NCBI GenBank assembly: GCA_944392975.1
Contig: CALXYN010000016.1
Span: 1 to 42,563 of the forward strand
DNA: 42,563 bases
Origin: an uncultured Spirochaetaceae bacterium
GTDB taxonomy: Bacteria > Spirochaetota > Spirochaetia > Sphaerochaetales > Sphaerochaetaceae
Direction of reading: 5' to 3'
The notes under the pieces are model-generated. The model was given only the letters and a program-made list of their open reading frames with translations. It did no database searches and was not told the DNA's origin. The position numbers and the translations under genes were made by a program. This document shows, piece after piece, positions 15,894 through 19,961 of this stretch (position 1 is its first letter; every line of letters begins with the position of its first letter).

Positions 15894-16152
15894 TACTTAA
15901 CTTATGATATCTTAATTATATGAGTATTATAAAAAATTATTTATTTTAATAGAAATATAGTCAGTTAACTATATTATTTTATATAAAAATTATCATTAAA
16001 TCATATATACGATTTCTTTTTATTAGTGATATCGGCATTGCTAACTTTACTGATGAAAAGATTTTTAAATGCATAGCATAATACTGTTTATTTAATGTTT
16101 TCCAGCATAGACATAGAAGTTTTTGCTTTATAAAATTTATTTGGAGGTTTGT
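15894..16152. other. Very AT-rich divergent intergenic region
   Basis: It separates the nuclease operon from the poly-G lipoprotein gene. No ORF, tRNA or clear repeat was found. On the plus strand a TAGACA-17-TAAAAT pair (16108-16136) exists, but its start point would fall on the ribosome site of the lipoprotein gene, so it is doubtful. Confidence 0.5.
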
Positions 16153-18100
16153 ATGAATCTTACAACGAGGATTGGAAGAAGATTTCGTCGTAAAGCTTTA
16201 ATACTGGGGGGGGGTACTTCTTCTCTTAGTTGCTTTTCTTACTTCTTGTAGACAGGTGGTTGTCATGTTTCCACCAATATCACAACCTGGTAATGAACCT
16301 GAGACTTGGGATGGAACAAGTGACATATCTTGGTACAGTAAAAGCAGAAATACTTTTGCACTGGATACTGCAGAAGAGCTTGCTGGTTTAAGTGAGCTTG
16401 TAAATAGTGGAAATTCTTTTGAAGGGAAAACCATCAGACTCAGAAGCTCAATTGACCTGAATGGTTTTGAATTCACTCCGATTGGCTCCAATAATATTCC
16501 ATTTAAAGGGATATTCGATGGTGGAAACAATACAATATATGGTTTCGATAATGACAATACGGGCGTATGTGATGACGGTGGAAACCGCTATTTTACAGCA
16601 TTTTTCACTAGTGTTGATGGCGGTACTATCAAAAACATTTCATTTGAAGATTTCAATGTGGAGATGAATGAGAATGTTCCTACTGACAGAGTGAATCAGA
16701 GAATGGTTTCTGTTGCTGTCGGAAATCTCATGAATGGTGGAACTGTTGAAAATGTAACAGTAGGAGAAGGTGTTGTTGTAAGCCCTGTTAGAGCTGCTGG
16801 TGTTGTTGCAAGAGCTTCTAATGGAAGTGAAGAGAATCCAAACAGAATCATTAACTGCACCAATTATGCAGATGTTTTCACCGAAACTATAGGTGAGGAC
16901 CATGTTGCAGAATTAACGTATGGAACAGCTGGAGGAATTCTTTCAACAACGGCAGGTGGCCTTGTCGTTATTGAGCAGTCAGAAAATTATGGAACCGTAG
17001 AAGGAATGGTTTCTGGTGGCATTTTGGGGGATGCTCAAAGTACTGTTGAAATTAGTGGTTGTAACAACAACGGCAATATCAGAGGTGCTTTCTTTGTTGG
17101 TGGTATCATTGGTGATTTCTGGCACAATGGAGGAAATGGTACGATTTCCGACTGCCACAACCTCAAGGGTGCAGTCGTCGAAAGCCATGAAAGTTTCCAA
17201 ACAGCTGATGGAAAGCCTAATGATGGAACATTTGGAGATGTGAATATCGGAGGAATTGCCGGTGCTGCTGGTGTAGATGGAAATGTGACCATTGAAGATT
17301 CCTCGAATGAAGGGACGCTGATTAATCACACAGAGCAAATTCTTGCCTCTGTTGGGGGTATCATCGGAACAGGAATCAGTTCAAGTACTACACGCATCGA
17401 GATTATAGATACGACAAGTACAGGTATTATCCAGAATGCCGCAAAAGAGTCACCAGATGATAGAGGAATTTATTTTCAGAATAGAAACAAATGGACAACC
17501 GGCGGTGTTATTGGATATGCAAGGGGAATGAACTATTTGTTCAAGAATTCCTATGGTTATTATCCCGACTTCTCCGATGATTACTATGAATTTGGTGATA
17601 TCGCTGGATCATTAAATGCAGGAGATCAGGAAGGTACAGTAACAGTAGAATTCTCTGAACCATTTGAAAGTGAACAGCTATTTGGCATAGTACGTAATTT
17701 CAGTGCATCCAACTCTAAGATTTCTTTTGAAAACGTTCATGCCATCGAGCAGAATTTTGCACTGTGTAAAGACGAAATGATGAACCTTACACTGGATTCA
17801 GGTAGCCATATCGAGACAGCCATTCAACTCTATATCGGAGATGATGGAGATTCTAGCTATGGTATGGCAAGTATTTCAGGTAATATTGATAATCTTGTAA
17901 TCTATCCAAAGGCAAATGGGACTGGCGACAGTTATGGTCGTGGTTATCCTAACTGGGGAGAATGGACTAATTCTGTAAATGTAGTGAATGATCCTGATGG
18001 ATTTAGTTGGAAATGTCCTGCTGTGAAATATGTTGTTGATTCAGTTTCAATATTAATTAATAGCAACAAAATCTTAGATGTATCAGGTTCTGTACAATAG
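16153..18100 (+). CDS. Beta-helix-like surface lipoprotein, out of frame here at a poly-G tract (candidate phase-variable gene)
   Basis: The ATG at 16153 follows a strong GGAGG site and encodes the basic n-region of a signal peptide (MNLTTRIGRRFRRKALIL). It then enters nine consecutive G and runs into a stop at 16249. The rest of the gene is open in another frame from 16202. Removing one G joins them into a 648-aa protein whose signal reads GGVLLLLVAFLTSC, with the lipid-anchored Cys at about residue 32. The mature protein has many repeats of the type GGTVENVTV, VGGIIGDF and NIGGIAGA, with short NC or NN turns, as in right-handed beta-helix and GLUG-like surface proteins. A downstream-only GTG start (16256) would lack any export signal. 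It is probably a surface protein switched by slippage; a sequencing error in the G run is the main alternative. Confidence 0.82.
16206..16214 (+). repeat. Poly-G tract (nine G)
   Basis: An uninterrupted run of nine G inside the signal-peptide codons. Eight G (or eleven) keep the lipoprotein frame open; nine, as here, close it. I noticed no other G or C run of this length in the window. Confidence 0.97.
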
Positions 18101-18270: not shown

Positions 18271-19961
18271 ATGAATCTTGATTCGTATGATGATTATGTT
18301 TCCCTTCTTTTTGAATTATTGAATCCATTGAAGCCTTTCTATTCAAAAGAGTGTGCAAGAGTCCGTTTCAATGGTCCTGGTGCTCTCTATGATCAGAACG
18401 CAATTGAAATGGAAGCGTTCGCAAGGCCATTATGGGGACTTTCTGCATTATGGAAGGGTGGTTATAGAAACGACGATTTTCATTCTCTTTATTGTAAAGG
18501 CATTATAAATGGCACAGATCCTTCCTCTCCTGAATATTGGGGAAATCCATCTGACAATGACCAGCGTTTTGTGGAAATGGTCCCATTGCAGTTGCACTTC
18601 TTTCTGCTCCTGATTTACTTTGGAATCCGTTATCAATGGAAGAAAAAGAAAGTGTTGCAGCGTATCTTAGAACAATCAATGAGCATGAACTTCCAAAATG
18701 TAACTGGTTCTTCTTCCGCATTCTTGTCAATACAGCGTTGAAAACTCTCGGCATGGATTATAGCAGTGCGATGCTTGAGAGTGATTTTGATTTCATTGAA
18801 TCATGCTACATAGGTGATGGCTGGTATAAAGATGGAATCTCTGAGCGCCGTGATTACTACACTTCATTTGCAATGCATTTCTATAGTCTGCTTTATTCTG
18901 TTTTGACAGATGATGAAAATTATAGAGAAAAGGCGCTGGAAAGAGCTGAGATTTTTGCTCGTGACTTTGCTTACTGGTTTACAAATTCCGGTGAGGCTCT
19001 CTGCTTTGGCCGTTCTCTGACATACCGGTTTGCTCAGAGTGCTTTCTGGTCGATTTATATTGTTGCAGGTGGAAAAAAACAGGCAGAAGCAAAGGGTTAT
19101 CTTGGCCGGAATATAAGAAGCTGGATGGAAAAAGATATCTTTGATAATTCTCATATTCTCTCCGTTGGTTACGAATATCCTGATTATCAGATGGCTGAAA
19201 ACTATAATGCTCCAGGAAGTCCATATTGGGCTCTGAAATCCTTTGCAGTACTGATGCTTGGGAAGAATGATGATTTCTGGAATAAACATGAAAAACCATT
19301 TTCCGTGGTTAAAGGTATCCGTGTTATTGAGAAGGCCCGGATGGTCATTCAGCATCTTGGAAATGACACAATAGCTTTTGTTCCGGGAATGCTTGGAATG
19401 GTATCTCTGGGGCATTTTACAGAAAAATACGATAAGTTCGCATATTCAGCTATTTTCCCATTCTCCGTCTCGCACTCTGCGGAAAACGTTATGGAAAATG
19501 CTCCAGACTCGATGCTTGCTTTTGTTATCGATGACACTGTTTTCGTAAGAAAGGGTAGTATTGAGTATGAGATTACGGCAAATGGAATCCGTTCGTTGTG
19601 GTCTCCTCATCCGTCTATAAAAGTGAATACTGAAATAGTGATCAAAAACGATTCCCATATCCGTATTCATGAAATAACCAGTGAAATTGAATGTGTTGCT
19701 TATGACTCCGGTTTTTCGATAGGACGAGAAGGATGTGATGTACAGCTAATGGATAACATGCTTGAAATAACGAACGGAGATTTTATAAGTTCGGCAACAC
19801 TTGTTGAAGGTGAAGGGGAGTGCACATTCATTGAAAGTGCTCCTAATTCTTCTCTTCGATGGAGAAATGCGCTTATTCCTTCAATAAGGATTCGGATTGG
19901 AAAAGGGATGACAAGAATTATTACAGAATTCAGAGCTGTTATGAGGAAAGTGAATGCTTAG
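18271..19961 (+). pseudogene. DUF2264 family protein gene with one frameshift
   Basis: The first 104 codons and the rest of the gene lie in different frames. The break is at the short C run at 18582-18584: adding one base between 18580 and 18585 fuses FVEMVP with IAVALLSAPDLLWNPLS and gives one 563-aa protein. DUF2264 hallmarks then run in order: NPLKPFYSKECARVRF, AIEMEAFARPLWGLSAL, FVEM, NWFFFRILVN, GDGWYKDGISERRDYY and FAMHFYSLLY. After about 350 residues a beta-rich C-terminal half follows. Members are (alpha/alpha)-toroid proteins in polysaccharide-utilisation loci with poorly defined function. GAGG lies before the ATG. The next gene overlaps its end, so the operon looks otherwise intact and the lesion may be recent or a base-call error. 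Confidence 0.85.

Follow-up and report, generated by a model that had tools for sequence, protein, structure and literature searches.

A nine-base G tract splits the signal peptide of a candidate phase-variable lipoprotein in an uncultured spirochaete with a probable genus-wide set of G-tract switches

The window, i.e. the whole stretch of 42,563 nucleotides that was analysed, comes from an uncultured Spirochaetaceae bacterium and carries, between positions 16153 and 18100, a large gene divided over two reading frames at a run of nine G. The following elements were recognised at the locus:

16108 to 16136, plus strand: candidate sigma-70-like promoter TAGACA-17-TAAAAT, without a G run, with only 10 of 12 consensus matches
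16143 to 16147, plus strand: GGAGG ribosome-binding site, read from the sequence
16153 to 16251, plus strand: truncated frame with ATG at 16153, 32 codons and a stop (16249-16251), encoding a basic n-region MNLTTRIGRRFRRKALI
16202 to 18100, plus strand: open frame of the lipoprotein body, under purifying selection relative to its closest homologue (dN/dS 0.15)
16206 to 16214, plus strand: G tract, nine long and followed by TA, the proposed slippage switch; the same tract is present in the closest homologue (L074)
16214 to 16249, plus strand: hydrophobic segment and lipobox VLLLLVAFLTSC, in the downstream frame

The initial annotation had reported the GGAGG site, the ATG, the nine G and the early stop, all of which were seen, the nine G at exactly 16206-16214, and had described the rest of the gene as open in another frame up to 18100, which was confirmed. 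Within this downstream frame, a GTG-initiated open reading frame (16256-18100, the stop ending at 18100) encodes 614 amino acids, and these 614 codons of the lipoprotein body hold no further lesion. The split of a lipoprotein signal by the tract was likewise found as described there: judged by eye and not by a signal-peptide predictor, the gene possesses a basic n-region, a hydrophobic core and a Cys lipobox, but in the assembled copy the first precedes the tract, while the core and the lipobox LTSC follow it in the other frame, with about 600 codons after them. The candidate promoter is the top-scoring promoter-like site of the region. The tract was also considered as a promoter spacer and rejected as such, since no -35 box lies at a proper distance and TACTTC does not resemble TANNNT. 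The next gene in the 3′ direction, a DUF2264 gene (18271-19961 of the window), is itself represented by two overlapping frames, with a breakpoint at about 18636-18741, near GAAAAAG, which could reflect either a frameshift or an assembly error.

The window protein gave no match in Pfam or PDB sequence searches, the GLUG motif (PF07581) being absent at E ≤ 1, and an AlphaFold model made without an alignment was discarded at a mean pLDDT of 34. The beta-helix-like repeats initially ascribed to it found no confirmation, given the absence of a Pfam match and the uninformative single-sequence model. GLUG (PF07581) is matched by a paralogue in the same genome (L038, on contig C35), which shares 30% identity with the window protein over 455 residues. 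In this paralogue the G tract lies in the promoter spacer, and in the window gene it lies in the signal peptide, so that related lipoproteins of one genome carry the tract at two different sites.

The tract is the sole G/C run of at least 7 in the 42.6-kb window, and when the window alone was shuffled with dinucleotides preserved, 25 of 100 shuffles equalled it, which is not significant. The excess emerges at the level of the genome. A 400-kb genome sample, taken without regard to tracts, contained 709, 87, 9 and 1 G/C runs of 4, 5, 6 and 7 bases, respectively, and none longer, i.e. the counts drop about tenfold with each extra base. Extrapolated to 2.07 Mb, approximately 0.55 runs of at least 8 and 0.06 runs of at least 9 would be expected, while genome-wide pattern counts gave 14 and 11, with a mode of 9. 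Measured against a simple dinucleotide model, runs of 9 or more are clearly in excess (11 observed vs 2.35 expected), and those of length 8 are not. A chance origin of the tract was rejected on the 14 runs of at least 8 against about 0.5 extrapolated, and homopolymers longer than expected by chance do occur here in promoters or 5′ coding regions.

Ten of the other 13 tracts of the genome lie within -35/-10 spacers, mostly of lipoprotein genes. Nine of the 13 fit the pattern TTGAC-spacer-G(n)-TANNNT, for which the reversed control gave 0; eight of these are situated directly upstream of long open frames of 381-1018 codons, and the ninth, on contig C18, ends at a contig edge. The genes behind the promoter tracts mostly start with a lipoprotein-like N-terminus. 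The tenth spacer tract has the same layout, with nine C (C9) as the spacer, and the lipoprotein downstream of it shows KQYVFVPG after the glycine next to the lipobox cysteine. A further tract, on contig C14 (8 G; L032, 4816-4823), lies upstream of a PapD-type chaperone gene, and tracts of 8-10 G upstream of PapD-type chaperone genes are found in three species (L032, L253 and L285), and in a fourth species (L334) the tract of a PapD-type gene lies close to the gene start. In L032, L253 and L285 the tract is followed by TAANNT and no TTGACA box is present, and these tracts could possibly belong to an activator-dependent promoter.

Matches to the window gene were present in 18 of the 48 genomes of the genus. 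The closest homologue (L074, contig C72 of genome G016) belongs to another species and is 62% identical in the search and 61% identical over 398 aligned codons; its n-region is quite different, yet it holds nine G at the same place and is likewise out of frame. Between these two out-of-frame genes dN/dS is 0.15 over the 398 codons, with silent sites near saturation, and the gene is therefore regarded as maintained. In other words, the tract is conserved and the frame behind it is kept by selection. Among more distant relatives the tract lies inside the signal peptide, in either phase (L076, L077, L081, L089, L095, L096, L099), right after the lipobox (L093, L102) or in the promoter (L075, L078, L080, L082, L084, L086), and some others have no tract nearby. 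An unrelated lipoprotein (L332) shows the same signal-peptide layout in frame. An in-frame copy of the window gene itself was not seen, both the window copy and its closest homologue being out of frame at the same tract length. The initial annotation had called for a comparison of homologues, and relatives keeping the same codons always in frame without a G run were not what was found.

The same architecture extends over the genus. Promoters with a TTGAC-type spacer tract occur in most genomes of the genus, often 5-15 in each, and the control patterns gave almost nothing; among 108 listed promoter examples, the commonest G length is 9, and the -35/-10 distance, which ranges over 14-22, is most often 18-19. 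Gene starts with G/C tracts were collected from sampled members of the genus, taking an ATG or GTG with a ribosome-binding site within 160 bases of a non-promoter tract of at least 7 and at least 120 open codons beyond. By this rule, which is crude and may have misassigned a few starts, the 23 starts divide into 9 in-frame and 14 out-of-frame cases, which fits the one third expected by chance (two-sided 0.70), and both states are represented among relatives for this class of genes. Mixed phases and promoter positions together led us to reject the tracts as ordinary, constrained Gly codons.

Changes of tract length can be read directly from sister copies. One copy with 9 G (L307) and two with 10 G (L308 and L309) show 0/60 and 0/42 mismatches in their near flanks, and the pairs L294 (9 G) and L297 (8 G), and L300 (10 G) and L301 (9 G), have identical near flanks and differ by one G. 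All these copies are separate loci or repeats, and not a single locus entered twice, because their more distant flanks differ. These sister tracts lie in genomes G064, G019 and G028, and they show directly, at the sequence level, that tract length changes more rapidly than the DNA around it.

Tracts within a gene or at its start were seen in the genus for, among others, HsdS, a type ISP restriction enzyme, a cytosine methylase, glycosyltransferases and a Gp10-like phage baseplate protein. Genes of these kinds are what bacterial contingency loci typically contain; an exception outside the surface theme is a GARS (purD-like) gene (L347) with a tract at its very start. At L295, two adjacent genes each have nine G near the start and are both out of frame, and one of them matches the C-terminal domain of phage baseplate protein Gp10. 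This locus recalls the poly-G switching reported for Campylobacter phages, as cited in a passage of PMC11868660. A genus devoid of mismatch repair was considered and rejected, as MutS and MutL, which would restrain slippage, are both kept in the genus; the apparently short MutL frame of the genome under study is accounted for by a contig edge.

Taken together, the conserved tract and the mixed phases among relatives make the candidate phase-variable surface lipoprotein, OFF here, as the initial annotation had put it, the best reading of the locus. In all likelihood, the large surface lipoprotein gene at 16153-18100 is subject to slipped-strand phase variation and is OFF in this assembly. Replication slippage (slipped-strand mispairing) at the signal-peptide G tract would add or remove one G; one length class of three would place signal peptide and body in a common frame, and the other two would end translation early and leave the lipoprotein absent, the majority length in this assembly being an OFF length. 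The window locus would then belong to a phasome, a collection of G-tract switches spread over the genome and the genus. Within this collection, the tract of a lipoprotein gene mostly occupies the -35/-10 spacer, where its length would alter promoter spacing; in a minority of these genes, including the window gene, it is part of the coding sequence. More generally, many runs of this kind, in the organism studied and across its genus, very probably act as random on/off switches of surface and phage-related genes. We infer that slippage takes place in the living population, that the lipoprotein is exposed at the surface and that switching is of benefit, through evasion of phages or of host immunity.

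Other readings have to be weighed against this one. Transcriptional slippage can arise at long G runs, and if RNA polymerase or the ribosome slipped on the nine G, some full-length protein would always be made, and the tract would set its level and not an on/off state. The tract length of nine, shared by the window gene and its closest homologue, would suit such constant slippage, but correction of the frame is impossible for tracts in promoter spacers and for tracts that are C runs, and where sister copies match in their near flanks, their tracts differ in length in the DNA itself; we consider this reading improbable. Less probable still is a miscount of the tract in assembly or base calling, with a gene that is simply in frame. 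The sequence stems from one metagenome-derived assembly of 109 contigs, homopolymers are error-prone and the adjoining DUF2264 gene also looks frameshifted. However, the closest homologue, at about 61% protein identity and with silent sites close to saturation, has kept the tract, which is nine long there too; an out-of-frame state is shown by 14 of the 23 comparable gene starts, and a length off by one would still leave a long, conserved G tract. The caveat of the initial annotation that a base-call error would look the same holds for one sequence, and a lone error is unlikely given this conservation and the out-of-frame starts. Finally, a decaying pseudogene, which the out-of-frame window copy would allow, is hardly credible for 614 codons otherwise lesion-free and a dN/dS of 0.15 towards a homologue that is likewise out of frame.

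The slipped-strand switch proposed here has known counterparts, and this kind of bacterial switch is established, including the poly-G switches of the spirochaete Treponema pallidum (tprE/G/J, tprL and tp0126), to which the initial annotation had pointed. There, poly-G tracts are located in tpr promoters, between -35 and -10 of tp0126, and in other cases within genes; they measure about 7-11, mostly 9 for tprL, and vary in length within an isolate (PMC7864442). Comparing the switch logic with that paper, the two systems share the phylum, the mode of 9 and the combination of promoter and intragenic tracts. They differ in that the T. pallidum genes encode Tpr or OmpW-like outer-membrane proteins, whereas large lipoproteins of an uncultured gut genus are concerned here, and in the fixed 3′ TA, which is a feature of the present genus. 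The gut habitat is presumed, based on the types of record to which its relatives belong. In Neisseria meningitidis, poly-G between -35 and -10 tunes transcription at the porA (a poly-G spacer) and opc promoters, as mentioned in a passage of PMC7864442, similarly to the promoter-type sister tracts, whereas the window gene combines a tract in the coding sequence with an ordinary promoter. Closer to the window gene are meningococcal hmbR/hpuAB and nalP/mspA, where, according to passages of PMC3786947 and PMC3723659, a homopolymer in the ORF switches translation; these proteins are unrelated, and here the tract lies between the n-region and the hydrophobic core of a lipoprotein signal. The 5′ poly(A) tract of Listeria inlA, which causes reversible truncation to a very short peptide (PMC2831843), is also a homopolymer at the 5′ end, but it is poly(A) and affects a single gene. 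By its sequence features, the window locus would behave like the intragenic class of poly-G switches.

An earlier report of genus-wide poly-G switching in this genus was not found in the literature searched, most subscription journals lying outside its coverage. What appears new is that one lipoprotein family of an uncultured gut genus would have two levels of switching, in the promoter spacer for some members and in the signal peptide for others, together with the TA signature described below. Up to about 30 tracts occur per genome, and the genes concerned encode lipoproteins, glycosyltransferases, restriction systems, pilus chaperones and a phage baseplate protein. Any one assembly of such a bacterium would represent just one phase of its surface, and the genus could offer a gut-commensal counterpart for comparison with surface switching of the syphilis type.

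In the 48 genomes of the genus, TA directly follows 479 of 650 (74%) runs of at least 8 G, the window tract included, against 79 of 1163 (6.8%) such runs in 24 other genera of the class and 6-8% of runs of 2-5 G in the genome under study; shared ancestry between tracts inflates the significance of this bias. Among intragenic tracts, with coding status defined by an open frame only, TA follows 19 of the 30 tracts whose G lie on the coding strand and 11 of the 12 that read as C there. No amino acid accounts for it, because the junction codon is read as Val, Tyr or Gly depending on the gene, and TA as a mere -10 box was rejected, since the rule also holds inside genes, on both strands, and for tracts located elsewhere. 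A tentative and rather doubtful explanation would be that TA marks a dedicated process creating, targeting or maintaining hypermutable G tracts, e.g. a GGTA-recognising enzyme, which would make them a specified class of mutable elements and not homopolymers kept by selection alone.

Promoter, ribosome-binding site and signal-peptide region are near-identical between different lipoprotein genes of one genome (L300/L301 and L307/L308/L309), and many contigs of the genus break at the 5′ region of lipoprotein genes, a pattern that suggests recombination or gene conversion of a 5′ cassette. Similar promoters were also encountered elsewhere. Streptobacillus notomytis (G085, L158) has 21 promoters of the form TTGACAAAA-spacer-G(n)-TATAAT, with a reversed control of 0, and a report of phase variation in this species was not found in the literature searched. 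Two rabbit-gut Bacilli assemblies, G073 (L178) and G076 (L175), hold 32 and 42 TTGACA-spacer-G(9-11)-TANNNT promoters, respectively, per genome of 1.4-1.7 Mb, again with a reversed control of 0, and this set of poly-G promoters is apparently independent and larger.
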